NCBI GenBank assembly: GCA_958295805.1
Contig: OY282373.1
Location: 2,513,001-2,577,000 of the forward strand
Length of the DNA stretch: 64,000 nucleotides
Origin: an uncultured Nitrospirales bacterium
GTDB taxonomy: Bacteria; Nitrospirota; Nitrospiria; Nitrospirales; UBA8639
Reading direction: 5' to 3'
The notes under the pieces were generated by a model that was not told where the DNA came from, made no database searches, and was given only the letters and a program-made list of their open reading frames with translations. The position numbers were made by a program, and so were the translations under genes. This document shows, in pieces, positions 5,776 through 32,014 of this stretch (its first letter is position 1; each line of letters starts with the position of its first letter).

Positions 5776-7737
5776 TTAGACCGAATGGGTGACGACCCTC
5801 GCCATTCCCGGCTCTCCCTCTTTTCCACCTTCAGGATCGGCTTTGGCTACGGGCCACGTAATCAAACCGGCGACCGTATCGGCTTGAGCGTCGGCCGGAC
5901 TGTGATGAGTGGCGTAAATTTGCGGCAGGACGTTGGAGCCGAACTTCGAGATATACAGAAAAATCTGCTCGCGCGCGTTGATCCGCACGGCCCACGGCTC
6001 AAAGTCATTCTGATAAAACTCTTCGCACAACTGCATGGCGTCCAGGCAGCTCACGCCGTCCGGTTCGTTCAGCGTGTAGTAATAATCCAGGGGCATGTCG
6101 TACTCGTCCTGTTTGTGAATCGTCATGCCGAACCGTTCGGGGTGCCTCACCATCGGGGTGTGCCGATACGCCACGAAATAAAACACCTCCACGGAATGAA
6201 TGTGGGATTTATTGTTCAGCAAGAACTGCCGGGTGTCTTCCGCTTCCCCCCGCGTTTCCCCGGGAAACCCGTAAAACGCCATGACGTGGTTCCAGATACC
6301 CACCCGCGCCGCCTCCCGTAAATTCCGTTCGATCACGCTCTTCTTCGCGTGTTTATCCATCAGTTCCAACACTCGTTCATTCGCCGATTCCATCCCGTAA
6401 TACAGCGTCTTGCACCCGGACTTGGCCGCAAGGTCCCAGATTTCCGGGTCCTGAAGCGTCTCTTCAAACCGGATCAACGTCGTCCATTTGATGTCCACCC
6501 GTTCTTCCACCAGCAATTGCGACACCTTTTTGAAGAGCGCGGGGGGATAGGATTCATCGGCGAACAGGAAATGCTCCGCGTGATATTTGTCTTTCAAGGC
6601 CTTGACCTCGCGCACCACGTCATGAGCCGGCTTGCCGCGATACTGGTCAAAGTATCCCTGCCCGTGGTCGCAGAACGTACACCGGCCCCAGTAACACCCG
6701 CGGGTGGCCAGATACGGCAGAATCCGGGTGGGCACGAAATAGGAGTCCAACGGCATCCCCTCGAAATCCGGCAGCGGCAGCGCCGTCGTCTTTTCCGTAT
6801 AAATCTCCGCGTTCGTGCAAATCCGTCCGGCGTCCCGATAGATCAGATTCGGCACCGCCTGCCACGCTCGATCACCCACCAGGGCTTCCAACAGCCACAG
6901 CAAGGCGTGTTCGCCTTCATACAGAATGGCCGAATCAAACACGGACGTGAAAAACGCTTCCTGTTTCGTCAAATCTTCCTGCAAGCGGGTCACCACGTTG
7001 CCGCCCACCGTCACGTGGACGTCCGGGAACGCCTCTTTAATCATTTTGCAGAAGGTGAACCCGGCAATCAGTTGCATTTTGGTTCCGATCGACACCCCGA
7101 CCACGTCGGGCCGCTCTTTACCGACCGCCGACAGCACCAACTGGCGGCAAACGTCCCGATACACGTTCACCTGCTCATCGTCCAGGCACGCGAGAACCTC
7201 CCGCGAGACCCCGGGCCGATAGCCCAAATGACTTTCCATGGGGTAATACACGAGAGACGCCGGATAATACGCCGCGGAAATATACCGCATGACGTCCCGA
7301 AACACGTTCAACGCCCATTCGAGTTTATCGGCGTCATAAAAATCTTCACTCCGGTTGATGCGTTTGGCCTCCTCGGCGTTCGCCGCCAGGTCCATCACGT
7401 CCAACGCTAACGCCTCGTCCAGACGGGCCCGCTGTTCCGTCTCCTTCTCACTCAAGCCTTCGCGTTGTGCCTTGGCCTCCAGCACGCGTTGCCGTTGCAC
7501 CATGCGGGCATTGACCCAGATCAGAAACACGTCGCTGAAGAACAACTCATACATCTCGATGTTGACGTCCTTCTGAATGACGTCATGGCCATTCGCGCGA
7601 AGGACCGACGTCAGACTCGGCAGCGCCAGATACGGCGCGGTGGGCACCCATTCCGGCGGGAACAGCAGCATGGTCTTCAACTTGCGACCGCTCTTGGGCT
7701 TGACGGATGAAGAATCGACGTGCAGCAGGGTGGACAT
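5776..7737 (-). CDS. B12-binding-type radical SAM protein (paralogue 2)
   Basis: A 653-aa enzyme. The N-terminus (MLLFPPEW, LTSVLRANGHDVIQKDV) matches the first part of a cobalamin-binding Rossmann domain. A helical insert at about 70-200 precedes its continuation (PDVVGVSIGTKMQL, VHVTVGGN). The radical SAM core follows, with C348-X4-C353-X2-C356 in RGCYWGRCTFC, then FADESYPP and YYGMESANERVLELM. The cluster spacing is CX4CX2C, not the common CX3CX2C. No DXHXXG cobalamin-ligand motif is seen, as in many of the family. It starts six bases after the upstream paralogue, so they are surely co-transcribed. Role unknown. Confidence 0.85.
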   Translation of the reverse strand: MSTLLHVDSSSVKPKSGRKLKTMLLFPPEWVPTAPYLALPSLTSVLRANGHDVIQKDVNIEMYELFFSDVFLIWVNARMVQRQRVLEAKAQREGLSEKETEQRARLDEALALDVMDLAANAEEAKRINRSEDFYDADKLEWALNVFRDVMRYISAAYYPASLVYYPMESHLGYRPGVSREVLACLDDEQVNVYRDVCRQLVLSAVGKERPDVVGVSIGTKMQLIAGFTFCKMIKEAFPDVHVTVGGNVVTRLQEDLTKQEAFFTSVFDSAILYEGEHALLWLLEALVGDRAWQAVPNLIYRDAGRICTNAEIYTEKTTALPLPDFEGMPLDSYFVPTRILPYLATRGCYWGRCTFCDHGQGYFDQYRGKPAHDVVREVKALKDKYHAEHFLFADESYPPALFKKVSQLLVEERVDIKWTTLIRFEETLQDPEIWDLAAKSGCKTLYYGMESANERVLELMDKHAKKSVIERNLREAARVGIWNHVMAFYGFPGETRGEAEDTRQFLLNNKSHIHSVEVFYFVAYRHTPMVRHPERFGMTIHKQDEYDMPLDYYYTLNEPDGVSCLDAMQLCEEFYQNDFEPWAVRINAREQIFLYISKFGSNVLPQIYATHHSPADAQADTVAGLITWPVAKADPEGGKEGEPGMARVVTHSV

Positions 7738-7743
7738 CGCGGT

Positions 7744-9639
7744 TCAGACCTTTGCCAAAGCCGCCGCGTTCTCTTCCGGCGAAACGCGGAACTGCAAGGC
7801 GGGCAGGTGATTAGTGCCGAAGTGCGCCACGTAGAGAAACACGTACTCGCGAATGTAGATTTTCAAGTCCCAACCCGCGTAATGCGTCCGTTCAAACTCC
7901 TCAAACACGCGTTCCGCGTCTTCGACGCCCAGGCCGTCCTTCACGGTAAAGTAATAATCCAGAGCCAGGTCCCATTCAGGATTCTGATAATAGGTAATCC
8001 CCCATCGCTCCGGATTCTTGGCTACCGGCGTGTGCTTGCTGAGATCAAACGTGCCGAACCCGATGGAGTGGACGTGCGCCTTGTTGTCTTCCAGAAACTG
8101 CATGGAAAATTTCGCATCCTCATACCGCTCGCCCGGAAACCCGAAAAAACCCATGACGTGGTTCCAGACCCCGTGCGTAGACGACAACTCCAGGCTCCGT
8201 TGCACCACGTCCGTCGTGGTGGCCTTATCCATGAGTTTCAGCACCCGCTCACTGCCGGATTCATAGCCCATGTGAAGAAATTTGCAACCGGAGTCCCGGG
8301 CGTCCCGCCACACTTCATCGTCCAACAGACTTTTCTCAAAGCGAATGTGCGTCGTCCACGCAATCCCCAATTTGTGTTCCTTGAGGTGGCGCGTCAGTTT
8401 GCGGAACAACGCCGGCGGATACGACTCATCCGTAAAGTGAAAATGATACGCCTGATATTTATCCCTGAGAAACTTCACTTCCGCGATGACTTCCTGAATC
8501 TTCTTGGTCCGATAGCCGGCCGTGTACCCTTCACCGTGATCGCAAAACTCGCACCGCCCCCAATAACACCCCCGGGTGGCCAGATACGGCAGCACGGGCT
8601 CCGGCACAAAATATTTCTCCAAGGGAAGCCCGTCGAAATCCGGCGGAGGCAACTCCGACATGTGTTCCGCGGAGGTCACGGGAGAAGTATGGATTCCGGC
8701 CTCGTCACGCCATAAGAGATTGGGAATGGTCTTGAAGTCGCGATCCGTCCCAATCGCTTCGACCAACTGCAAGAAAGCCGTTTCCCCTTCATATACAATC
8801 GCACTGTCAAAGAGCGCAAAGAGGCCGGGGGTCTTCGGCAACACGTCGCGCAGCCGCGTCACCGTATTGCCGCCGATGGTCACGTGAACGTGCGGAAAGT
8901 GCTCTTGAATCATGGCGCAGAACGTCATGGTGGAAAACAACTGCTGGCGCAAGACGATGGAAATCCCGATGACGTCCGGTTGTTCCTCCACGATGGCGGG
9001 CTTCACCACGTGCTCGAACACGTCGCGATAGACGTTCACCTGCGTATCCTCCACCGCGGCGAGCACCTCTGAAGACATGAACAATTTATACGACAAATCC
9101 GTTTCCATGGGCGGCAGACAAATGCGGGCGGGGGCGTACACCAGAGAAATCGTCGCCGTCACCTCCCGAAAAACGGTCATCGCCCAGTCAAGTTTCTCCA
9201 CGTCGTAGAAATCGGGGGAGCGAACGATGGCTTTCGCGCGCTCGGCCCGGTCAATCAACTCAGCCACGCGCGACCGCGTGCATTCGCACAAGGCCACTTG
9301 CAGCTCGGTTTCCGCCTCAGAGAGACCGCGATCCCGGGACAGTTTTTTCAAGCGATCAAACTGGTGAGGCACTCGTTTCAGCACGCGCCTAAGAAAATCC
9401 TCACTGAAAAACCAATCGTACATCTCCAGATTCACGTCTTTCTGCACCACCTCATGCCCGGCGGCCCGGAGGAACGCCGTCAGCGTGGGAAGACTCAGAT
9501 ACGGTTCGGAAGGATACCAATCAGGCGGGAAGAGCAGCATGACCTTCTTTGTAGGTCCGCGCTCCGACTTCGCATCGTTTCGGCGAAGCTGAATGAGCTG
9601 CGGGCTGAGCAACCCGCCTTTATTATAATCAATCCTCAT
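7744..9639 (-). CDS. B12-binding-type radical SAM protein (paralogue 1)
   Basis: A 631-aa paralogue of the next gene, alignable nearly end to end: MLLFPPDWYPSEPYLSL, a charged helical insert, PDVIGISIVLRQQL, VHVTIGGNTVTRL, C358-X4-C363-X2-C366 in RGCYWGRCEFCDHG, FTDESYPPALF and MGYESGSERVLKLM. The ATG at 9639 is preceded by AGGG seven bases upstream; the frame is open further upstream but that extension runs into a repeat region. Tandem duplication followed by divergence is the simplest origin. The two enzymes may act on related substrates or as a heteromer; this is inference. Confidence 0.85.
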   Translation of the reverse strand: MRIDYNKGGLLSPQLIQLRRNDAKSERGPTKKVMLLFPPDWYPSEPYLSLPTLTAFLRAAGHEVVQKDVNLEMYDWFFSEDFLRRVLKRVPHQFDRLKKLSRDRGLSEAETELQVALCECTRSRVAELIDRAERAKAIVRSPDFYDVEKLDWAMTVFREVTATISLVYAPARICLPPMETDLSYKLFMSSEVLAAVEDTQVNVYRDVFEHVVKPAIVEEQPDVIGISIVLRQQLFSTMTFCAMIQEHFPHVHVTIGGNTVTRLRDVLPKTPGLFALFDSAIVYEGETAFLQLVEAIGTDRDFKTIPNLLWRDEAGIHTSPVTSAEHMSELPPPDFDGLPLEKYFVPEPVLPYLATRGCYWGRCEFCDHGEGYTAGYRTKKIQEVIAEVKFLRDKYQAYHFHFTDESYPPALFRKLTRHLKEHKLGIAWTTHIRFEKSLLDDEVWRDARDSGCKFLHMGYESGSERVLKLMDKATTTDVVQRSLELSSTHGVWNHVMGFFGFPGERYEDAKFSMQFLEDNKAHVHSIGFGTFDLSKHTPVAKNPERWGITYYQNPEWDLALDYYFTVKDGLGVEDAERVFEEFERTHYAGWDLKIYIREYVFLYVAHFGTNHLPALQFRVSPEENAAALAKV

Positions 9640-9810
9640 GAGCAACCCTGCGAGGGAGCACGGACCAGCCCGTCCCCCATTGACCCGACATTCTATGGTG
9701 TAACAAAAGCACCGGTCAAGCACTCCTCCGCAAAACAACGAAAGGAAACGTCCCTCAAGATTCAAGGTGAGAGACAACACCCCCCTCATCACTCCCGCAC
9801 CTCCCCTGTC

Positions 9811-9952
9811 CTTCCCGCGAAGGCGGGAAGCCACAGGCTTCGATTCGGTTGCCTGGCGGTGTGCGTAGGTCATTCCCGCGCACGCGAGAATTCACGCCTT
9901 GACGCCGTTCCCCGATGTTCGGTGCCTGGTCACTCCCGCGCACGCGAGAATC
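9811..9952. repeat. REP-like palindromes (CATTCCCGCG family)
   Basis: Three short near-palindromes lie upstream of the B12-type radical SAM gene: CTTCCCGCGAAGGCGGGAAG at 9811-9830, and CATTCCCGCGCACGCGAGAA at 9871-9890 with a close copy at 9931-9950. Each is followed by a TCCACAG- or TTCACG-like tail. They are typical dispersed extragenic palindromes and could form hairpins in RNA. Confidence 0.7.
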
Positions 9953-10376: not shown

Positions 10377-11402
10377 TCAGTCGTGATAGCCGCCGACGAT
10401 TTTGTCGATGAAATTCAAGATGGCGGTTTTTTTGACGGGGTCTTTTTCTAATTGCAGGGCCTGTTGGTAATGATCGCCGGCGATCTCGGGTTTTCGTTTG
10501 AGATCATAGACGCGGCCGACGCCGAAGACGGCCCGGGCATCATTGGGGTCGGCTTTGACCGCGACGCTGAAACTATCCAAGGCTGCGTCAATCTGCCCTT
10601 TTTCTATCAAAATCCATCCGACCTCAGTCGCGGCGACGCCGAAGTCCGGTTTGATGCGCAGGGCTTCCTGATAGGCGCGCAACGCGAGTTCCCGTCGCCC
10701 CTTCTGTTCGTGCAAGCCGGCTATGGCCACGTGGATCTCGGCATCCTCGGGGTTGAGCTTCAGGGCCACCTTATATTCCTGCATTGCGGCGTCGAGTTTT
10801 CCCTGTTCGGCCAGAGCACAGGCTAAATTCACGTGCCCCAGCGCCTCGTCGGGATCGAGTTTGATGATTTCTCGATATTGGGGAATGGCCATTTCCAATC
10901 GGCCGTGTTCTTGATAGGCCACGCCTAAATTCAATCGGGCGGCGACGTAGGCAGGGTCCAATTCGACGGCTCGACGATAGGCTTTGATGGCCTGATCCGC
11001 CTGGGCCATCCGCTGATAAATCTGCGCCAGGAAAAAATGCGGAAAGGGCGAGTCAGGTAACAGGGCAATCGCCTTGTGATATTTCTCGATGGACTGCTCG
11101 GATCGACCGGCCTGCGCCAGAAACACGCCCTCAACCAACTGCACGTAGCCGGCTTGGGGATGCGTCCGGCTCAACCGATCCACCCACTCGCGCACGATCT
11201 CCCTGTCGGCCTCTTCCTGCAAGGACTTGGCATACATCTGCCACACCCGTGCGAATTCGCCTTTCATGAGAGAGACGACGTTTAACGCAAAGAACGGCGT
11301 GGGGCCCGCCTCTTCTTGCTGCGACCACCGACCGGCCGCTTGGGCAACCGCTTCCCAGTCCCCTTTGACTATGGCTTGTTCGATTGTTTGTTCGTCGGTC
11401 AT
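10377..11402 (-). CDS. Tetratricopeptide repeat protein
   Basis: A 341-aa soluble protein. An N-terminal helical region of about 85 residues is followed by about seven TPR units, for example AIEKYHKAIALLPDSPF-type helices, AYRRAVELDPAYVAARLNLG and EYKVALKLNPEDAEIHV. TPRs mediate protein-protein contacts; the partner is unknown. No signal peptide is seen. The ATG at 11402 is chosen because further upstream the frame enters the ThyX-like gene; its ribosome binding site is weak. It follows the ThyX-like gene by about 50 bases and may share its transcript. Confidence 0.85.
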   Translation of the reverse strand: MTDEQTIEQAIVKGDWEAVAQAAGRWSQQEEAGPTPFFALNVVSLMKGEFARVWQMYAKSLQEEADREIVREWVDRLSRTHPQAGYVQLVEGVFLAQAGRSEQSIEKYHKAIALLPDSPFPHFFLAQIYQRMAQADQAIKAYRRAVELDPAYVAARLNLGVAYQEHGRLEMAIPQYREIIKLDPDEALGHVNLACALAEQGKLDAAMQEYKVALKLNPEDAEIHVAIAGLHEQKGRRELALRAYQEALRIKPDFGVAATEVGWILIEKGQIDAALDSFSVAVKADPNDARAVFGVGRVYDLKRKPEIAGDHYQQALQLEKDPVKKTAILNFIDKIVGGYHD

Positions 11403-11452
11403 GGGGATTGGGGAGTGATGATTGTTGGATTGCAGATTTCCAGATTGGGAGG

Positions 11453-12946
11453 TTATCGGGTCAGAGGGTCTTCCTCGTAGGGGGGAGTCGCCGGCATCCG
11501 TTCTCCTAACCAGGGATACTGTTTCATCATTTGTTGTTTCATCTCCCAGGCGACCGTGCGGTACGACCAATGACCTTTGACGCCTGACCGGAGTCGGCAA
11601 ATGTAATCGGCTTCGGCATAATCCATCTTGAAAAGACACCGTACCTTGAATCCGAAGGGAATCGCGTACAGCGCCGCTTCCTGATCCATGCCCCGCAATC
11701 GTTCGAGGTCTTGCTGCACCGCGTCCATGGCCATCCGATACTCTCGATCCAGGCCGGCGTCACACAACGGCCCGGGTGTTTCGTACCCGTGCGCGACGGT
11801 AAAATTTTGCTGGATCTGTTGGCACCGTCGATGCCGATGCAAATCCCGCCACCCTCCGATGTCCATCAACACGTCAAAGATCAAGGGATAGCCGCATCGA
11901 TATTCTTTGATGAGTTCGTCATGGGGGCCTCGTCGTCGAAAGGCAACGTCCAGGGTTTCCCGTTTGTCCTGCTCGGGCCACTCCCGGACCCACTCCAGAA
12001 TCCGGCGATACGGGGCATGCCCGACGCGATAGAGGACGCTCGTCACCAGTTCATCCATCAACGCATGGGGTTCGATCAAGTCTACCGGCCCCTCCTGCTC
12101 TCCCCACGCCGCCGGCAGGTCCAATCCGGCTTTCCGCAGGACTTTTTTCCCGTGCCTGGATAGTTCGCGGTAGACCTCGGCTTGGTCCTCATTGGCCCCG
12201 GCGTGCCGGGCCAACGTCGGCGCCACGGGATCCACGGCCTTGTCGGACATCCCGCACACCTGTCCCCACACGTCCGCGGGAGCCTTGGCACAGCTTTCCC
12301 GCAACGCCTCTCCCAGGTCCCGAAGTTCCGGCAGTTGCGCGGACAACCATCGCGTGATCTGCTTTTCCAGCGTTCGGATGCTGACCACCTGTCCGACGTT
12401 CGTCTTCGCGGCCAGCGGCAGCAGGTACCGCGTGTTGTCGTAGACGCGCGCGGCCAGGGTTCGCGTGTACGCGGCTTCGGTCATGGTCGCCGGTCTGGGA
12501 TATTTCTGCTGCAAATGGGCCAACAGCGGCTCGTGGACGGTCTGATACAGATGAAAGAGGCTGCCCAACGTTCCGCGATACACGGCTTCGGTTTCGGACT
12601 GCTTGATGCTCGCCGGCACGTAACAGCCCGACACGGCAAAGTTCTGATACCGGCTGGATTTGGCTTGTCCATCCCACAACGGTTCATCTTCCACGCGGAT
12701 CGCCGCCAATTCGGAAATGTTTTCCAGGCACACGGTCACGTGCCCGAGATCGGCGATCGACGCGTGGCCGTAGTCAAAATAGAATTGTTCCCAGAATTTT
12801 TCCGATGAGTGGCCGTGGACCCATTTGATACTGTCTTCAATGGAGTCCGGTGAGCGGCTGTATCGGGCCAAGGCATACGCAGATTTTTCCGGCGGCATGG
12901 GCGCGAGGATCACGACTCGTCGTTCAGCGGTTTCTTCATGAACCAT
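11453..12946 (-). CDS. Duplicated ThyX-like protein (FAD-dependent thymidylate synthase family)
   Basis: A 497-aa protein with two ThyX-like halves. The first has FDYGHASIADLGHV and ISELAAIRVED, then SSRYQNF at 97-103, matching the ThyX order GHxS, serine-arginine, RY. The second has YRCGYPLIFDVLMDIGGWRD followed by RHRRCQQIQQNFT at 371-383. The classical RHRX7S signature is not intact in either half: the first lacks RHR, and the second has Asn at the Ser position. Known ThyX enzymes make dTMP from dUMP with FAD and NADPH; activity here is uncertain. The ATG at 12946 is one of several possible starts and has a weak ribosome binding site. Confidence 0.7.
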   Translation of the reverse strand: MVHEETAERRVVILAPMPPEKSAYALARYSRSPDSIEDSIKWVHGHSSEKFWEQFYFDYGHASIADLGHVTVCLENISELAAIRVEDEPLWDGQAKSSRYQNFAVSGCYVPASIKQSETEAVYRGTLGSLFHLYQTVHEPLLAHLQQKYPRPATMTEAAYTRTLAARVYDNTRYLLPLAAKTNVGQVVSIRTLEKQITRWLSAQLPELRDLGEALRESCAKAPADVWGQVCGMSDKAVDPVAPTLARHAGANEDQAEVYRELSRHGKKVLRKAGLDLPAAWGEQEGPVDLIEPHALMDELVTSVLYRVGHAPYRRILEWVREWPEQDKRETLDVAFRRRGPHDELIKEYRCGYPLIFDVLMDIGGWRDLHRHRRCQQIQQNFTVAHGYETPGPLCDAGLDREYRMAMDAVQQDLERLRGMDQEAALYAIPFGFKVRCLFKMDYAEADYICRLRSGVKGHWSYRTVAWEMKQQMMKQYPWLGERMPATPPYEEDPLTR

Positions 12947-13207: not shown

Positions 13208-13440
13208 GTCCCTTGGCTCCCTCTCCCCTTGAGGGAGAGGGGCGGGGTGAGGGGAAAACAAGGCTCGCACTCAATCCGCGATCCCACGCCCCCGACGGCA
13301 TGCCCATGCCAACGGAAAACCAGCTTCTTCACTTCGTTCAGAATGACAGAGAAGGGCGGACTGACGGAGGAAGGCGGACTGACGACGGACACGCCATGAA
13401 CATGCCCGGCATCATCCCTGAATTCCCGCTTGCGCGGAAA
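13206..13440 (-). repeat. Composite dispersed repeat module, copy 2
   Basis: Read on the minus strand this carries the same ordered blocks as the copy near 10.0-10.3 kb: GGGAATTCAGGGATGATGCC, a CATGTTCATGGCGTGTCC segment, TCTGTCATTCTGAACGAAG, CCGTTGGCATGGGCATG, and a CCCTCACCCCGCCCCTCTCC palindrome. It lies between the ThyX-like gene and the giant autotransporter and contains no gene that I can support. Confidence 0.65.
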
Positions 13441-13690
13441 GGACAGGGAGGCGTGCTCCCTCTCCCCTTGCGGGAGAGGGCTGGGGTGAGGGGAAAAAAC
13501 GCTCGCTCGCGACCCGCAGGCCCACGCCCCCGACGGCATGCCCGTGTCAACGGAAAGCCAGCTTCTTCACTTCGTTCAGAATGACAGAGGAAGGCGAGAA
13601 GGACAGGAGAGGCGGAAAGGACGTCGGGAGCATGCTCCCTCTCCCCTTGCGGGAGAGGGCCGGGGTGAGGGGTCTCTCCTCCGGATGTTT
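13441..13690 (-). repeat. Composite dispersed repeat module, partial copies 3 and 4
   Basis: A partial third copy has a CCCTCTCCCCTTGCGGGAGA palindrome near 13458, the CCGTGTCAACGGAAAGCC block, and the TTCACTTCGTTCAGAATGAC block at about 13566. A fourth palindrome of the same CCCTCTCCCC type sits near 13638, just beyond the stop of the autotransporter gene, where its hairpin could help end transcription. Confidence 0.6.
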
Positions 13691-13693
13691 CAA

Positions 13694-16600
13694 CTACCAC
13701 TGCCAGCGCAGGCGGATCGAGACGCCGTGCGAGGGCCGCTCGCCGGGTTGCTTGGCTCGTTCGCCCTCAATGCTCAGGTTCAGCGAGTCACTCAACGCCA
13801 AGCGGCCACCGAGGCGGTACCGGGCCACCACGGGCCCGGCCAGCGCCAGCCCTCCATACGGCGTCACCAGTCCCCGGCCCCCAGCCAACCCCAGCCCGTA
13901 CCCGCCCTCAACCTCAACCCGATCAGGCGACCACCCCGCCGCGCCAGGCCGCGCACCTCCGCCGGCTCCCTCCAGACCCGCCGCACTCCCCCAGAGCCGC
14001 TCCACCCCGCTGGCCGCCTCTCCCCACACCGGCGCCACCGTCAGATACGCCCCCTGACCCGCGGGCCCCGGAGCCAGCCGCACCTGCACACTGGCCCCCC
14101 AGTCCTCATACGCTCCCTCCTCATGCGCGACCAGATACCGCCCCTGACCGTCTATGTGCAACCCCCACGCCGGCCGCGTGTAGACCAGCCCCCCGCCCAC
14201 TTCCACTCCCACCCCGCGCGCGACGTCGCCCCGATCCCACCGGCCCCCCGACTTCCAGCCGGGGCACCACACGCGACGCCGCAGACCCCCATTCCGTCCG
14301 GCCTTCCAGCAACAGCCGCACCCGCTCCGCGTCGCCCCGCGCCGCCGGCACGCTCTCGTTGCCCCCGGTGGTCATCGTCGACACCAACGCATCCGCTTTC
14401 GCCGCCAAGTCAATCCCGTGCAACGTCGTCAACGCCTGCCGCCCCCCGACCGCACCCAGCAGGAAAGACAGGGCCGTCGGCCGCAGGCGCTCCCCGGTTC
14501 CAGTCACCTCGATCGCCAGAGTACCCCAGCCCATGCCCAGCAGACTCCACACGCCCAGCCCGGGCCGGGGTTGCCAGTGCGCATACGGCAACACGCTCGT
14601 CACCTCCACGTCTCCGGCTACCTCCTGGTCCGTCTCGCCGGTTCGCTCGTACTCCACGTCCCCGGTACTGTGGGCCAGAGCCAGTCCCAGCAGCACGGCC
14701 GGCCGGGGCCGGTAGTCCACGCCAACGTAGCCGCTGGCGAGCCGCCCGGCCAGCGTGAAGCCGGGCTCAGGCTGCCCGGCGAAGCCGCTCGCCGCCCCCC
14801 GGCCCCACAATGTCCAGGTGGGCCGCCCGGCCGCCCCAGTCCGGCTCAGGGGCACTTCGAACGCACTCCGGGACAGCAGGTCCTCCCCGGAGACGGGCGA
14901 GACACCCACCGGCTGCCACGAGACCGCCCCTCTCAGGTCGTCGGCATGGCCCGGCACGTGCGCCGCAGCCCTTGGGGCTCGGGCCGCGGAGCCGTCTAGT
15001 GCCACCCCCAACGCCCGGGCCACGCCGACGACGAGCCCCGTCACTCGCCGCCACGTGCCAGGCTCGGCCCCGGCCGCACTCCCGACCCCGCTCTCTCTGC
15101 CCTCGGTCAGCCGCAGCACCTGCCCGCCCAAGGTCACCTGCACCCTAGACGCCGCCGGCGCCCCAAACCGCCCCCACAACATCTCCACCGCGTCCGTCGC
15201 CAGCGTCCGCCCAACCCCAGCCAGCACCAGCCCCACATCCCGGCCGTGGACGCCGGGCACCACCTCCATGGTGAACGCCAGCGTGTCCGCGTCGCCGTCC
15301 GCATCCCGCACCGTCCATGTGTACCGCGTCCGGGCCTGAACCGCCGTCGGCGTACCAAAAAGCAGCCGCGTGCTGGCGTCAACGGTCAAGCCCGCCGGCA
15401 GGGGCGGGACCAAGGCATAGCGGAGAGCCCCGTCGCCACCTGTCGCCTCCGGTAACGTCAGCCTGACGGCGATGCCGACCCGATAGCGTTGCGCCGCCAC
15501 TCCGTCCCGAAACACCGGCTGCAAGTCCGCCGCCACCGTGATGGTAAAGAGGAGGTTGGCCGTGGCTCCGGTCCCGTCGGTGGCCCGCCACGTGTAGATC
15601 GTCGGCGGCCCATGGACCACCGGGGTGCCAGTAATCACGTGGGACTCAGCAGCGAGAGTCACGCCCGTAGGCAGGGCCGGGCTCAGGTCGTAGGTCACCG
15701 TCCCCATGCCCCCCGTTGCCGTCGGCAATGTCAAGACCGGAATCTCCGTGTTCTGCGTCCACATCTGATCGGCGATGGTCGTGTCGCCGAAAGTCGGCCT
15801 CACCTCTCCCCCAGGCGAGCGGGTCAGCACCGTGATCGCCACCGTGTCGGTCGCACTGGCACCGCCAGCCATGACCGTCAGCGTGAACGTCAGGGTCGCG
15901 TCCGCCGCTAGCTCCGGCGCGGGGAATGTCGGCGTGGCCGTCGCCGCCCCCGTCAGCGGGACGGAGGGCACTCCCCCGGTCTGCGTCCAAGCGTAGCTCA
16001 ACATATCGCCCTCCGGGTCCTCGCCCCGGCCGCTGAGAGTCACGGCGTCCCCTTCGGGCACCGTCTGGTCGGCCCCGGCGTCGGCGGTAGGCGGGTCGTT
16101 GTCCGCTTGGATGGTCACCGCCACCGTGTCGCTGCCGCTCACGCCCCCGGCGTCCGTCACCGTCAGCGTGAACGTCAGGGTCGTCTCCGCCGACAATTCC
16201 GGGGCGGTGAACGTCACCGTGGCCGTCGTGGCCCCCCCGCTCAGCGTCACGCCGGGCAAGCCCCCGGTCTGCAGCCAGCCGTAGGTCAGCGTGCCCCCTT
16301 CCGGGTCCTCGCCCGTGCCGGTCAGGGTCACGGCGTCGCCTTCGGTGACGGTCTGATCCGTCCCCGCGTCCGCCGTCGGCGCGTCGTTGTTCGCTTGGAT
16401 GGTCACCGCCACCGTGTCGGTGCCACTCCCGCCCCCGGCCGTCACCGTCAGCGTGAACGTCAGGGTCGTCTCCGCCGACAATTCCGGGGCGGTGAATGTC
16501 GCCGTGGTCGTCGTCGCCCCCGTCAGCGTCACGGTCGGCGAGCCCCCGGTCTGCGTCCAGGCGTAGCTCAGCGCCGCGTTCTCCGGGTCCTGGCCGCTGC

Positions 16601-19600
16601 CGCTCAGGGTCACGGCGTCGCCTTCGCTCACCGTCTGATCCGTCCCCGCGTCCGCGGTCGGTAGGTCGTTGTCCGCATTGACCGTGACCACCACCACGTC
16701 GGTGCCACTCTGTTTCCCGGTCCCGGGGCTTCCTCCGGCGTCCGTCACCGTCAGCGTGAACGTCAGGGTCGTGGGCCCCGTCAACTCCGGGACGGTGAAC
16801 GTCGTGGTGGCCGTGGCCGCCCCCGTCAGCGTCATGGTGGGCGACCCCCCGGTCTGCCGCCAGGCGTAGGTCAGCACGCTCTGCTCCGGGTCCTGCCCCG
16901 TGCCGGTCAGGGTCACGGCGTCGCCCTCGCTCACCGTCTGATCCGACCCCGCCGCCGCGGTCGGCGCGTCGTTGTTCGCCCAGACCCGAATCGCCACCGT
17001 GTCGGTGCCACTCGCGCCCCCGGCGTCCGTCACCGTCAGCGTGAACGTCAGGGTCACATCCTCTACCAACTCCGGCGCGGTGAACGTCGCCGTGGTCGTC
17101 GTGCCCCCCGTCAGCGTCACGGTCGGCGACCCCCCGGTCTGCGTCCAGGCGTAGCTCAGCGCCGTGTTCTCCGGATCCTCACCGCTGCCGGTCAGGGTCA
17201 CGACCGTGCCTTCGTGGATGAACTGATTCGTTCCCGCCTCCGCGGTCGGCGCGTCGTTGTCCGCGTTGACCGTGACCACCACCTCGTCGGTCACACTGGC
17301 TCCGCCGGCCGTCACCGTCAGTTGGAACGTCAGGGCGGTGGGCCCCGTCAACTCCGAGAGGCTGAACGTCGGCGTGGTCGTCGTCGCCCCCGTCAGCGTC
17401 ACGGTCGGCGAGCCCCCGGTCTGCGTCCAGGCGTAGCTCAGCGCCGCGTTCTCCGGATCCTGGCCGCTGCCGCTCAGGGTCACGGCGTCGCCTTCGCTCA
17501 CCGTCTGATCCGTCCCCGCGTCCGCGGTCGGTAGGTCGTTGTCCGCATTGACCGTGACCACCACCACGTCGGTGCCACTCTGTTTCCCGGTCCCGGGGCT
17601 TCCTCCGGCGTCCGTCACCGTCAGCGTGAACGTCAGGGTCGTGGGCCCCGTCAACTCCGGGACGGTGAACGTCGTGGTGGCCGTGGCCGCCCCCGTCAGC
17701 GTCATGGTGGGCGACCCCCCGGTCTGCCGCCAGGCGTAGGTCAGCACGCTCTGCTCCGGGTCCTGCCCCGTGCCGGTCAGGGTCACGGCGTCGCCCTCGC
17801 TCACCGTCTGATCCGACCCCGCCGCCGCGGTCGGCGCGTCGTTGTTCGCCCAGACCCGAATCGCCACCGTGTCGGTGCCACTCGCGCCCCCGGCGTCCGT
17901 CACCGTCAGCGTGAACGTCAGGGTCACATCCTCTACCAACTCCGGCGCGGTGAACGTCGCCGTGGTCGTCGTGCCCCCCGTCAGCGTCACGGTCGGCGAC
18001 CCCCCGGTCTGCGTCCAGGCGTAGCTCAGCGCCGTGTTCTCCGGATCCTCACCGCTGCCGGTCAGGGTCACGACCGTGCCTTCGTGGATGAACTGATTCG
18101 TTCCCGCCTCCGCGGTCGGCGCGTCGTTGTCCGCGTTGACCGTGACCACCACCTCGTCGGTCACACTGGCTCCGCCGGCCGTCACCGTCAGTTGGAACGT
18201 CAGGGCGGTGGGCCCCGTCAACTCCGAGAGGCTGAACGTCGGCGTGGTCGTCGTCGCCCCCGTCAGCGTCACGGTCGGCGAGCCCCCGGTCTGCGTCCAG
18301 GCGTAGCTCAGCGCCGCGTTCTCCGGATCCTGGCCGCTGCCGCTCAGGGTCACGGCGTCGCCTTCGCTCACCGTCTGATCCGTCCCCGCGTCCGCGGTCG
18401 GTAGGTCGTTGTCCGCATTGACCGTGACCACCACCACGTCGGTGCCACTCTGTTTCCCGGTCCCGGGGCTTCCTCCGGCGTCCGTCACCGTCAGCGTGAA
18501 CGTCAGGGTCGTGGGCCCCGTCAACTCCGGGACGGTGAACGTCGTGGTGGCCGTGGCCGCCCCCGTCAGCGTCATGGTGGGCGACCCCCCGGTCTGCCGC
18601 CAGGCGTAGGTCAGCACGCTCTGCTCCGGGTCCTGCCCCGTGCCGGTCAGGGTCACGGCGTCGCCCTCGCTCACCGTCTGATCCGACCCCGCCGCCGCGG
18701 TCGGCGCGTCGTTGTTCGCCCAGACCCGAATCGCCACCGTGTCGGTGCCACTCGCGCCCCCGGCGTCCGTCACCGTCAGCGTGAACGTCAGGGTCACATC
18801 CTCTACCAACTCCGGCGCGGTGAACGTCGCCGTGGTCGTCGTGCCCCCCGTCAGCGTCACGGTCGGCGACCCCCCGGTCTGCGTCCAGGCGTAGCTCAGC
18901 GCCGTGTTCTCCGGATCCTCACCGCTGCCGGTCAGGGTCACGACCGTGCCTTCGTGGATGAACTGATTCGTTCCCGCCTCCGCGGTCGGCGCGTCGTTGT
19001 CCGCGTTGACCGTGACCACCACCTCGTCGGTCACACTGGCTCCGCCGGCCGTCACCGTCAGTTGGAACGTCAGGGCGGTGGGCCCCGTCAACTCCGAGAG
19101 GCTGAACGTCGGCGTGGTCGTCGTCGCCCCCGTCAGCGTCACGGTCGGCGAGCCCCCGGTCTGCGTCCAGGCGTAGCTCAGCGCCGCGTTCTCCGGATCC
19201 TGGCCGCTGCCGCTCAGGGTCACGGCGTCGCCTTCGCTCACCGTCTGATCCGTCCCCGCGTCCGCGGTCGGTAGGTCGTTGTCCGCATTGACCGTGACCA
19301 CCACCACGTCGGTGCCACTCTGTTTCCCGGTCCCGGGGCTTCCTCCGGCGTCCGTCACCGTCAGCGTGAACGTCAGGGTCGTGGGCCCCGTCAACTCCGG
19401 GACGGTGAACGTCGTGGTGGCCGTGGCCGCCCCCGTCAGCGTCATGGTGGGCGACCCCCCGGTCTGCCGCCAGGCGTAGGTCAGCACGCTCTGCTCCGGG
19501 TCCTGCCCCGTGCCGGTCAGGGTCACGGCGTCGCCCTCGCTCACCGTCTGATCCGACCCCGCCGCCGCGGTCGGCGCGTCGTTGTTCGCCCAGACCCGAA

Positions 19601-20978
19601 TCGCCACCGTGTCGGTGCCACTCGCGCCCCCGGCGTCCGTCACCGTCAGCGTGAACGTCAGGGTCACATCCTCTACCAACTCCGGCGCGGTGAACGTCGC
19701 CGTGGTCGTCGTGCCCCCCGTCAGCGTCACGGTCGGCGACCCCCCGGTCTGCGTCCAGGCGTAGCTCAGCGCCGTGTTCTCCGGATCCTCACCGCTGCCG
19801 GTCAGGGTCACGACCGTGCCTTCGTGGATGAACTGATTCGTTCCCGCCTCCGCGGTCGGCGCGTCGTTGTCCGCGTTGACCGTGACCACCACCTCGTCGG
19901 TCACACTGGCTCCGCCGGCCGTCACCGTCAGTTGGAACGTCAGGGCGGTGGGCCCCGTCAACTCCGAGAGGCTGAACGTCGGCGTGGTCGTCGTCGCCCC
20001 CGTCAGCGTCACGGTCGGCGAGCCCCCGGTCTGCGTCCAGGCGTAGCTCAGCGCCGCGTTCTCCGGATCCTGGCCGCTGCCGCTCAGGGTCACGGCGTCG
20101 CCTTCGCTCACCGTCTGATCCGTCCCCGCGTCCGCGGTCGGTAGGTCGTTGTCCGCATTGACCGTGACCACCACCACGTCGGTGCCACTCTGTTTCCCGG
20201 TCCCGGGGCTTCCTCCGGCGTCCGTCACCGTCAGCGTGAACGTCAGGGTCGTGGGCCCCGTCAACTCCGGGACGGTGAACGTCGTGGTGGCCGTGGCCGC
20301 CCCCGTCAGCGTCATGGTGGGCGACCCCCCGGTCTGCCGCCAGGCGTAGGTCAGCACGCTCTGCTCCGGGTCCTGCCCCGTGCCGGTCAGGGTCACGGCG
20401 TCGCCCTCGCTCACCGTCTGATCCGACCCCGCCGCCGCGGTCGGCGCGTCGTTGTTCGCCCAGACCCGAATCGCCACCGTGTCGGTGCCACTCGCGCCCC
20501 CGGCGTCCGTCACCGTCAGCGTGAACGTCAGGGTCACATCCTCTACCAACTCCGGCGCGGTGAACGTCGCCGTGGTCGTCGTGCCCCCCGTCAGCGTCAC
20601 GGTCGGCGACCCCCCGGTCTGCGTCCAGGCGTAGCTCAGCGCCGTGTTCTCCGGATCCTCACCGCTGCCGGTCAGGGTCACGACCGTGCCTTCGTGGATG
20701 AACTGATTCGTTCCCGCCTCCGCGGTCGGCGCGTCGTTGTCCGCGTTGACCGTGACCACCACCGTGGGAGTTGCGGCCACGGCCACGATTGGCGTGGTGG
20801 CGTCGCACATGCCGGCAATCGCAAGTAGTCCACCAGCAACGGCAACCGCTCGCCGCAACGCTTGCTTCCGGGACCGCGTGGGGGGTGGATGGGGGGTAGA
20901 GACCGATGACCGCATACAGGCCGAAGCACAAAAGGACGTGAGAATCTTCCCGAGCCCGAGACGAGGTGCCTCACCCAT
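13694..20978 (-). CDS. Giant Ig/PKD-repeat autotransporter with C-terminal beta-barrel, frameshifted
   Basis: A predicted outer-membrane autotransporter adhesin of about 2,427 aa once one extra base is removed. Order: an N-terminal basic region and hydrophobic signal-like segment (residues 40-70); 17 PKD/Ig-like domains of about 96 aa with the pattern NDAPTA-AG-DQTV-EGDAVTLTG-G-DPE and YAWTQTGG; two putative-Ig (He_PIG-like) domains; then an autotransporter beta domain ending in RLRWQW, the usual aromatic outer-membrane terminus. Five copies of a three-domain block are nearly identical in DNA. As written, the frame breaks at a C6 run (14244-14249) and the first frame ends at 14121 inside the barrel. 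The start may be 20978 or 20915; neither has a clear ribosome binding site. Confidence 0.85.
14244..14249 (-). other. C6 homopolymer at a coding frameshift
   Basis: A run of six C (six G on the coding strand) lies in the beta-barrel region. With six, translation passes from RLEVGG into PVGSGRR and ends at 14121. With five, it continues as GGRWDRGDVARG through a well-formed barrel to RLRWQW at 13694. Either a slippage-prone phase-variation tract or a sequencing or assembly error. Confidence 0.75.
16502..20763 (-). repeat. Tandem 870-bp repeat, about 4.9 copies
   Basis: An 870-bp unit (290 codons, three Ig/PKD-like domains) repeats with exact period: identical text starts at 16669, 17539, 18409, 19279 and 20149. 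The copies appear identical apart from the edges; for example the copy nearest the 3' end has GGGTCC at 16585-16590 where later copies have GGATCC. Such identity points to very recent expansion or gene conversion, and the copy number is likely to vary or be misassembled. Confidence 0.95.
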
Positions 20979-21098: not shown

Positions 21099-21144
21099 TT
21101 ATTAAAAGACGATAAATATGTGGTCAATTTTTGACATAAGTCAA
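21099..21144 (-). promoter_or_regulatory. Candidate promoter with FNR/CRP-like box for the giant autotransporter
   Basis: On the minus strand there is TTGACC (21127-21122), 17 bases, then TAATAA (21104-21099). Just upstream is TTGAC-ATAA-GTCAA at 21131-21144, a perfect 5-bp inverted repeat with the half-site spacing of FNR/CRP-family operators; a third half-site overlaps the -35 box. The box centre is about 45 bases from the expected start of transcription, close to a class II activator position. Inference from pattern only. Confidence 0.4.
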
Positions 21145-21168: not shown

Positions 21169-21183
21169 CAGAAAAAATCTTCT
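21169..21183. repeat. Target site duplication, left
   Basis: CAGAAAAAATCTTCT directly abuts the left inverted repeat of the IS and is identical to the copy at 23006-23020. The bases just outside both copies differ, which delimits the duplication to 15 bp. Confidence 0.85.
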
Positions 21184-23005
21184 GTCAACCCAAAGCCAAG
21201 ATGTCCCCTTTGAGCAAAGCGAAGATGTCCCCTTGGGAGGTTTTGGAATGGGAGGTTGGTGCTCCAAGGGCGTCGTGGGGTGGCCTGTGGACAACCCCGT
21301 CGCTGCCTCCCCCCGACCGCCGGTTGCCCACAGGCTTCACGCGCTCGCGCGAAGGGGGGCAGGAACGGTCAAGACAAGACAGGGAGAGGGTGTCGAGGAG
21401 ATACCCCTGGAGGGGCCCGGTTCGGCTTGGGCCGGGTGATGATCGCTGCGGTGAGTGGCTGGAGGCTGACCCACCCCCAGGGGGCTGTGGATGATCAGGC
21501 GCAGGGCCATGGGCGGGTTTGAGGCAGCGCAGAGTTGCAACCGCTCACGCGGTTGCAGTCCCCCTCCCTTGGCTGCGGCGCCGGAAGCCCCTGAGGCCAA
21601 CCCTTCCGCTCCGAGGGGCGGGGGGTTAGCGGGGAGGGTGCGAGACAGGAGAGGAGGGGGGGTGTCTCCAGCGGTTCCAGGGGTGGTCTGGGGAGGGTTT
21701 GTACTTGGGGCGTTTGCGTTGGAGCCCACGGGCGGTGTCGACGGTTCGGTGGAGGCTCTTCTCGTCGTCCACCGGGATGGGAGTTGGGCCTTGGGCGAGG
21801 ATGCGGTAGTCGAGGGTCTGGCCCTGACATAACAGGGTGACGCGACCGTCGAAGTCCTCGCACACGGTGACGGGGCTTGAGCGCAGGCGGTAGCCCCTGC
21901 CTTGGTTCAAGACTTGGTATTCCCTGTTGCGGTATCTCAGGGTGAGGTTGCGGCTCAGCTTGCGGGTGGAGTGGCAGCTCACGATGAGGTTGAGGGAATC
22001 GGGGTCGTGCAGCACTGGGCGGTGGGCGTCGTGGGGGTTGTGGGGCGGGCGGGCGAAGCGGCGGTTGTGGTCAGCCATGTACTTGGGCACGAAGGCATTG
22101 GCCTCGTTGATGGAGTGGATGCCGCAAAGGCGCAACTCCTTGACCAAGCGGTCCTGGAGGGTCTCGTTGGCCCGTTCCACCCGGCCCTTGGCCTGGGGGG
22201 TGTTGGCGTGGATGGGTTGGATGTCCAGGGTTTGAAGCGCCCGGGTGAACTGAGTCCGTTCGCCCTCGCGGTCCTGTTGAGTGACCCGGAAGATGCTGTG
22301 CTTGTCCGAATAGATGGCCACCGGACGACCGTACTGGTCCAGATACCCGCGCAGGGTCCTCATGTAGGCTTCGGTGGTCTCGGCCTCGACGAAACGCAGG
22401 GCCATGAGCCGGCTGGTGGCGTCGTCGATGAACACGATCAGGGTGCATGACGGCCCCCGCTCCTCGAACCATCGGTGCGGCGAGCCGTCGATCTGCACCA
22501 ACTCGCCCACGGCCTGTCGCCGGGGACGGCTGTGATGCACCCGCATCCCCCGGCGCTTCTTCGACCGCCACAGCCCCGCTGCCGCCATCCACTTGCGCAA
22601 GGTCTCCACCGACACCCGGTAGCCGTGCCCCTCCCACAGCTTCTCCCAGGCCAGGGTCGGTGAAAAATCTTCGTAGCGCTCCCGCACCACCGCCAAGATC
22701 TCTGCCCGAACCTCCGGCGCTATCGCGTTGCTCGCCTTGCGCCCCCGATGCCCCGAAATCAGCCCCTTCGCCCCCAACTCCCGGTAGCGCCGCACCAGCC
22801 GCTTCACTTGCCGCACACTCAGCCTCAACCGCTCCCCCGCTTCCCGTTGCACCAGCCGCTTCCCCACGACCTCCCGGATCACTTCCAGCCGGTCCACCTC
22901 GCGCATGGTCATCCCCTCTTCTGGCTTCGCCATCCCTTGTCCCCCTTCCTCAAAGGGGACATCTTAGCTTTGCTCATTAGGGGACATTATCGCTTTGCTC
23001 TAACA
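21184..23005 (-). mobile_element. Insertion sequence, IS1202/ISNCY type
   Basis: An intact 1,822-bp element. Its ends are imperfect inverted repeats of about 50 bp that each carry two copies of an AAGC-GA-GATGTCCCC motif: GTCAACCCAAAGCCAAGATG on the left, and TGTTAGAGCAAAGCGATAAT when the right end is read inward. It is flanked by a perfect 15-bp direct repeat. Long target duplications are characteristic of the IS1202 group; from memory, 15-18 bp marks an ISTde1-like subgroup. About 440 bp between the left end and the transposase stop has no supported gene. Confidence 0.85.
21626..22933 (-). CDS. IS1202/ISNCY-type DDE transposase
   Basis: A 435-aa transposase. N-terminal helix-turn-helix domains (residues about 10-125) include VRQVKRLVRRYRELGAKGL and VSVETLRKWMAAAGLW. 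The rve-type catalytic core has D149 (QIDGSP), D210 (IYSDKH) and E253 (GRVERANETLQ), and then a basic, proline-rich tail. The reading frame is intact, so the element may be active. It is the only gene in the IS. Confidence 0.9.
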   Translation of the reverse strand: MAKPEEGMTMREVDRLEVIREVVGKRLVQREAGERLRLSVRQVKRLVRRYRELGAKGLISGHRGRKASNAIAPEVRAEILAVVRERYEDFSPTLAWEKLWEGHGYRVSVETLRKWMAAAGLWRSKKRRGMRVHHSRPRRQAVGELVQIDGSPHRWFEERGPSCTLIVFIDDATSRLMALRFVEAETTEAYMRTLRGYLDQYGRPVAIYSDKHSIFRVTQQDREGERTQFTRALQTLDIQPIHANTPQAKGRVERANETLQDRLVKELRLCGIHSINEANAFVPKYMADHNRRFARPPHNPHDAHRPVLHDPDSLNLIVSCHSTRKLSRNLTLRYRNREYQVLNQGRGYRLRSSPVTVCEDFDGRVTLLCQGQTLDYRILAQGPTPIPVDDEKSLHRTVDTARGLQRKRPKYKPSPDHPWNRWRHPPSSPVSHPPR

Positions 23006-23020
23006 CAGAAAAAATCTTCT
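23006..23020. repeat. Target site duplication, right
   Basis: CAGAAAAAATCTTCT directly follows the right inverted repeat of the IS and is identical to 21169-21183. A perfect duplication suggests recent insertion. Confidence 0.85.
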
Positions 23021-30899: not shown

Positions 30900-31700
30900 A
30901 GTCCCGGACGGCCCCATAAGATGGAGCCGCTACACCCAAGAGCCTCCCCGGTATTCCGCCCGGACACCTCATACAACGTAGCGGCGGCATCTCATGCCGC
31001 CATCGGCCCCCCGTCCCGGACGGCCCCATAAGATGGAGCCGCTACACCCAAGAGCCTCTCCCCGATATTCCGCCCGGACACCTCATACAACGTAGCGGCG
31101 GCATCTTATGCCGCCATCGGCCCCCCGTCCCGGACGGCCCCATAAGATGGAGCCGCTACACCCAAGAGTCTCTCCCTCAGCATTCCGCCTGGACACCTCA
31201 TACAACGTAGCGGCGGCATCTTATGCCGCCATCGGCCACCCATGCCGGACGGCCCCATAAGATGGGGCCGCTACACCCAAGAGCCTCTCCCCGATATTCC
31301 GACCGGACACCTCATACAACGTAGCGGCGGCATCTTATGCCGCCATCGGCCCCCCGTCCCGGACGGCCCCATAAGATGGAGCCGCTACACCCAAGAGTCT
31401 CTCCCTCAGCATTCCGCCCGGACACCTCATACAACGTAGCGGCGGCATCTCATGCCGCCATCGGCCACCCGTACCGGACGGCCCCATAAGATGGAGCCGC
31501 TACACCAAAGAGTCTCTCCCTCAGCATTCCGCCCGGACACCTCATACAACGTAGCGGCGGCATCTTATGCCGCCATCGGCCACCCGTGCCGGACGGCACC
31601 ATAAGATGGGGCCGCTACACCCAAGAGTTTCTCCCCGGTATTCCGCCTGGACACCTCATACAACGTAGCGGCGGCATCTCATACCGCCATCGGCTACCGT
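30900..31700. repeat. Tandem array of about 114-bp double-palindrome units, seven copies
   Basis: A CATAAGATGG marker recurs at 30915, 31027, 31141, 31256, 31370, 31485 and 31600, a period of 112-115 bp. Each unit has GTAGCGGCGGCATCTTATG followed by CCGCC, which folds on itself, and, head to head with it, GGCCCCATAAGATGGAGCCG, which is an inverted relative of the first. Related single palindromes occur near 9965 and 38833. It fits a clustered REP/BIME-like repeat. No gene is supported inside. Confidence 0.85.
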
Positions 31701-32014
31701 GCCGGACTTGGGTCATGCGGCGATAATTCGTCCACACGGCCTGGTTGTCCGATGGATAGAACGGCGGGTCTGGTGCAATGCTGAAGTTCGTGCAGGTGAG
31801 ACGTACCGGCCTTCCCGCGCACGCAGGCGCGGCGATTTTCATGTGACCGGAGATTTGACCTAAAGATTCTGAATTCCCATTGGCACGGGAATGACGGTGG
31901 GGCACTGCGGGAATCGGTCACGAGGGACTTACGAACATCGCCACGAGCGACGAAAATAACAGGGCTGGGCAAGGTTGGGATCCACTCACCACTGCCCACA
32001 GGCCTCAACCGACG
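31701..32014. other. Gene-free stretch with one REP-like palindrome
   Basis: No gene supported. Contains a TTCCCATTGGCACGGGAATG palindrome near 31873-31892 and an ACAGGGCTGGGCAAGG run. It lies between the repeat array and the 3' end of the lipoprotein gene. Confidence 0.4.

Follow-up and report, generated by a model that had tools for sequence, protein, structure and literature searches.

Periscope Proteins are long single-chain surface proteins built of tandem, individually folding domains that are encoded by near-identical DNA copies, and in-frame recombination is the proposed cause of their length change. Their repeats exceed 50 residues at very high DNA identity and, in known examples, are SHIRT, Rib, G5-E or Ig-like domains, most of them held by a Gram-positive cell-wall anchor or an inverse autotransporter; a rod projecting from the surface is a feature, and a distal head is typical, though not strictly defining. 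The group also includes Gram-negative inverse autotransporters that carry Ig repeats, as well as ShdA, a classical autotransporter built with PATR repeats (PMC8201768, PMC9704523).

Other described systems share single traits with such proteins. Type Va autotransporters (Hbp, BrkA, EspP, AIDA-I, and ShdA for repeat-number variation) have a Sec signal peptide, a passenger that is usually, but not universally, a right-handed beta-helix, and a C-terminal beta-barrel. Inverse autotransporters (type Ve, intimin/invasin) carry an Ig-fold stalk on an N-terminal outer-membrane barrel, and repeat number varies there. RTX and other fibrillar adhesins contain tandem Ig-like extenders, e.g. the extender repeats of Aeromonas hydrophila (6xi1), and use type 1 secretion with a C-terminal secretion signal. 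Finally, K319L-like PKD domains (Pfam) occur in the eukaryotic membrane receptor KIAA0319L/AAVR.

Here, we analysed a 64,000-nucleotide stretch of DNA (the window) from the genome of an uncultured Nitrospirales bacterium and found a gene in which a nearly perfect array of PKD-encoding units precedes a C-terminal barrel. With moderate confidence, we propose that it represents a genus-restricted, autotransporter-type fibrillar protein whose PKD stalk was expanded by unequal recombination.

Results

An array of near-identical 870-bp units

On the minus strand, an 870-bp unit is repeated 4.9 times head-to-tail over window positions 16503–20763, and these 4,261 bp contain a single mismatch. In a self-comparison, the sequence matches itself exactly at an offset of 870 bp, unbroken over 16588–20763 (4,176 bp, 4.8 copies), and a single mismatch at 16587 is followed by 84 identical bases down to 16503. 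Array matches of this length cannot be due to chance. Other repeat finders agree with the 870-bp array, and a whole-genome BLAST search returned four complete units and one of 696 bp, all at 100%, followed by a degenerate block at 80%. Genome-wide, the same search found no second locus for the unit; the best match elsewhere, in a paralog of 12,361 aa, covers 434 bp at 73%. A first-pass annotation of the window had described five near-identical copies at 16502–20763. The position is correct to within one base and the near-identity holds, but strictly there are 4.9 copies, the last of which is chimeric with the next domain.

Units 1 (19894–20763), 2 (19024–19893), 3 (18154–19023) and 4 (17284–18153), as delimited by the self-comparison, are identical. 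The fifth, incomplete unit (16503–17283, 781 bp) contains the mismatch at 16587 and turns chimeric, its second half resembling the next diverged PKD domain, as unequal crossing-over would be expected to leave behind. The unit keeps the reading frame and comprises 290 codons for three PKD (Ig-like) domains of 95, 101 and 94 residues, in agreement with the 290-aa three-domain block noted at first pass. PKD domains that lie beyond the identical series diverge from those of the array by 11–25% at the DNA level, against one substitution array-wide; this comparison bears out the earlier suggestion of a recent expansion or homogenisation, and we read the 870-bp array as a sign of very recent expansion. 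We also weighed phase variation via a simple sequence repeat but dismissed it, since 870 is a multiple of 3 and the gene's frame break (see below) lies outside any long simple repeat.

Could the assembler have inflated or collapsed the number of identical units, so that the real copy number differs? A short-read assembly cannot count identical units exceeding the read length. However, the window genome is a single closed 2.90-Mb contig, 99.85% complete, which normally requires long reads spanning 4.3 kb. The boundaries of the array are clean, the last unit is chimeric with a diverged domain, and comparable arrays are present in a second single-contig congener (see below). We therefore consider such an artefact improbable.

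Domain architecture of the gene

The array is part of a 2,285-aa ORF (14121–20978, minus strand, as are all parts of the gene given below), in which Pfam recognises 17 K319L-like PKD domains and two He_PIG (putative Ig) domains. The ORF opens with a leader of about 70 residues (20769–20978), basic and then hydrophobic, which by eye resembles a signal peptide. The PKD array starts directly after it, and no head domain is recognisable N-terminal to the stalk. PKD domains 16 and 17 (15825–16391) are diverged and lie outside the array; the He_PIG domains (15258–15800) and the in-frame N-terminal part of the barrel (14250–14876; PF03797 match 14517–14768) follow, and the last ~40 residues are out-of-frame. 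The protein had been called giant at first pass, yet 2,285 aa is a middling length in this genome, where paralogs reach 13,364 aa.

An NCBIfam name, 'myxosortase-dependent M36 metallopeptidase', was discarded, as the match rests on the repeated PKD domains and Pfam finds no peptidase domain. A tRNA-like ARAGORN call within the ORF (14936–15029, minus strand, no assigned amino acid) was taken as spurious, and Rfam gave no match in the window. Just downstream of the gene, an intergenic repeat is present in two 119-bp copies (83%) at 13240–13358 and 13478–13596.

An AlphaFold model of one three-domain unit shows three beta-sandwich domains (pLDDT 94). In Foldseek searches, this model matched cadherin arrays and the RTX-adhesin tandem repeat 6xi1 (probability 1.0), while the nearest solved relative by sequence is the PKD chain of KIAA0319L (6nz0, E 3e-7). 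These results support a stalk-like array of Ig-fold domains. The likeness to RTX adhesins concerns the extenders, whereas the secretion signal of those adhesins has its place taken by a barrel here; with KIAA0319L/AAVR, the domain alone is in common.

Because no head domain is recognisable before the array, the stalk itself may be a binding or shielding surface. Its PKD and He_PIG domains would then contact carbohydrates or the matrix, i.e. sponge or mesohyl polymers, or shield the cell, instead of acting as the spacer of an adhesin, and copy number would tune avidity and not reach. The position of the array directly behind the leader is consistent with this possibility, and PKD, cadherin-like and Ig domains in marine bacteria are often linked with matrix and carbohydrate binding. 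However, K319L-like PKD domains are mostly structural, and we regard a binding or shielding stalk as rather unlikely. Cadherins in sponge symbionts have been discussed before (PMC10947273).

The barrel and its frameshift

The barrel measures ~390 aa in the family; in most members, the match to PF03797 is confined to the first ~100 of 255 positions. The model of an intact paralog barrel has ~18 strands, compared with 12 in the classical barrel (pLDDT 76, one weak stretch), and its best matches are the autotransporter beta-domains of Hbp, BrkA, EspP, NalP and AIDA-I (probability 1.0). The PF03797 matches and the predicted fold support a C-terminal, autotransporter-type barrel family; its alignment was too diverse for a pattern search. 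The order of leader, passenger and C-terminal barrel is that of type Va autotransporters, from which the gene differs by a PKD and He_PIG passenger instead of a beta-helix and by the longer barrel. With type Ve it shares an Ig-fold stalk on an outer-membrane barrel, but the barrel is C-terminal here and the domain families differ.

In the window copy, the barrel is distributed over two reading frames. The sequence leaves the family alignment (A1, 28 relatives) near 14,240, and the remaining barrel (13697–14240) continues in another, open frame that ends in ...RLRWQW before the stop. The first-pass assignment to beta-barrel autotransporters consequently holds for the family, but as assembled this copy has a frameshift within its barrel. 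As assembled, the protein would lack its C-terminal strands and would not be expected to insert into the outer membrane; surface display of the window copy is doubtful because of this frameshift. The gene is therefore either just inactivated or affected by a sequencing error.

Just inactivated, it would be a decaying pseudogene, possibly also disturbed by an insertion sequence upstream, and the array would be a neutral leftover of recombination with no present function. Indeed, the sequence is generally accurate, because 12 paralogous ORFs (~191 kb in total) are uninterrupted, which argues against a high assembly error rate. Moreover, an ISNCY-family element lies upstream (21182–23006, minus strand; transposase 21626–22933), its end 204 bp from the ATG. 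It has a ~14-bp target duplication, AGAAAAAATCTTCT, on its flanks, is identical to two other genomic copies and was inserted recently. Against decay, the post-shift sequence is 61–65% identical to most intact paralogs and as well kept as the pre-shift part, with no further stop or shift. A possible sigma-70-type promoter (TTGACT-18-CATATT, 21115–21144, minus strand) also persists in the AT-rich leader that separates the IS from the gene, where one match to the consensus was found against 0.1 expected. Furthermore, the lone indel lies in a G+C-rich tract and may be a single sequencing error. We see the pseudogene as a real, if lesser, possibility. The function of the fibrillar protein that we propose is presumably carried by the intact paralogs.

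The barrel family in the genus

Identical lysS sequences connect two congeners to named MAGs, Nitrospira sp. bin75 (G006) and Nitrospira sp. SB0677_bin_15 (G009). By these identities, the genus is GTDB 'bin75', Candidatus Nitrosymbion, within which lysS places the window genome on a deep branch (75–76% DNA identity). MAGs of Ca. Nitrosymbion come predominantly from marine sponges, and the described species is extracellular in the sponge mesohyl and present in larvae (PMC11812461). We infer a sponge origin for the window genome itself.

Is the barrel family a common trait of Nitrospirota? In a comparison with one genome per species, it was found in each of the 14 bin75 species covered and in none of the 382 other Nitrospirota genomes searched. 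In the window genome, the family barrel is present in at least 13 ORFs, which range from 847 to 13,364 aa and together make up 198 kb (6.8%) of the sequence. Two of them, uninterrupted ORFs of 13,364 aa (G000:C1:2109083-2149177, minus strand) and 12,361 aa (~2462956-2500038, minus strand), are among the longer bacterial ORFs. A search of the genome collection with the whole protein returned no relative; among plasmids, a DNA-level search with the repeats yielded nothing beyond a weak haloarchaeal PKD match, and tblastn with the barrel was negative. None of the papers in the literature searched linked sponge Nitrospira to autotransporters.

Within the family, the 12,361-aa protein is the nearest paralog of the window gene and agrees with it in C-terminal order but has just two PKD domains, so that the PKD stalk of the window gene is probably a recent expansion. 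In congener G010, a single closed contig, a 3,182-aa member contains a 675-bp array of six copies that are 98–100% identical (0–14 differences), and a 2,802-aa member contains 690- and 1,728-bp arrays; these are built of other domain types than the PKD domains of the window. Since this congener has near-identical arrays of its own, recent expansion recurs in the family. Exchange is also visible between genes: two giant paralogs 800 kb apart (G000:C1:639342-666896 and 1446536-1474399, plus strand) are identical over the final 8,751 bp of the gene and the 442 bp that follow it (~9.2 kb), which points to a recent conversion or duplication. No such arrays were seen in the fragmented congener assemblies, where 7 of the 14 barrel ORFs are cut off on their passenger side by the end of the contig. 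This suggests that arrays break the assembly there.

Elsewhere in the window, a non-coding-looking tandem array at 30901–31707 consists of ~7 copies of a 115-bp unit (~92% identity); related copies occur in other parts of the genome, e.g. near 802–816 kb. Two adjacent B12-binding radical SAM enzymes (5776–9873, minus strand) are related to RiPP C-methyltransferases and PhpK and, with a nearby TPR protein (10377–11639), form a possible peptide-modification cluster.

Discussion

In the mechanism that we propose, the leader would direct the protein to the periplasm and the C-terminal barrel would anchor it in the outer membrane, so that a stalk of 17 PKD and two He_PIG domains, probably rod-shaped, would be exposed. 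Most PKD domains would have arisen by unequal homologous (RecA-type) recombination between 870-bp units. Each gain or loss of a unit would keep the frame and lengthen or shorten the stalk by three PKD domains, i.e. by ~12 nm if judged from the size of Ig domains. We speculate that the protein serves adhesion in the sponge matrix.

The first-pass annotation had noted that recombination alters adhesin length in other bacteria, and length-variable tandem-domain proteins are indeed established, autotransporter examples included (PMC8201768, PMC9704523). The window protein resembles Periscope Proteins in being a long single chain of tandem, individually folding domains, with 290-aa units at near-identity on the DNA level that are folded domains by both the AlphaFold model and Pfam, and for both, length change is proposed to come from in-frame recombination. 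The fold of the unit is similar to that of extended arrays, and the stalk may project from the surface as a rod. As a surface anchor, the barrel family is present, with the window copy frameshifted. The protein differs from Periscope Proteins by its PKD stalk, its C-terminal barrel and the lack of a recognised head, and its array is known from one genome. We therefore propose that the window protein works like a Periscope Protein, which is not to claim firm membership.

More tentatively, the gene may belong to a lineage-specific, recombining repertoire of autotransporters, in which one conserved barrel family with exchangeable stalk domains and repeatedly expanded arrays, ~7% of the genome, would vary the cell surface in sponge hosts and would be hidden in short-read MAGs by breakage or collapse of the arrays. 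Such genes tend to lie at the ends of contigs when an assembly is fragmented, so they are probably more abundant in symbionts than is apparent.

A recombining array of this kind could alter the length of the fibre. It would extend length-variable tandem-domain surface proteins, best known from pathogens, to a mainly sponge-dwelling nitrite-oxidising genus, here combining a PKD stalk with a C-terminal barrel. In our searches, the barrel family set bin75 apart from every other Nitrospirota genome sampled and is therefore a candidate trait of host association.
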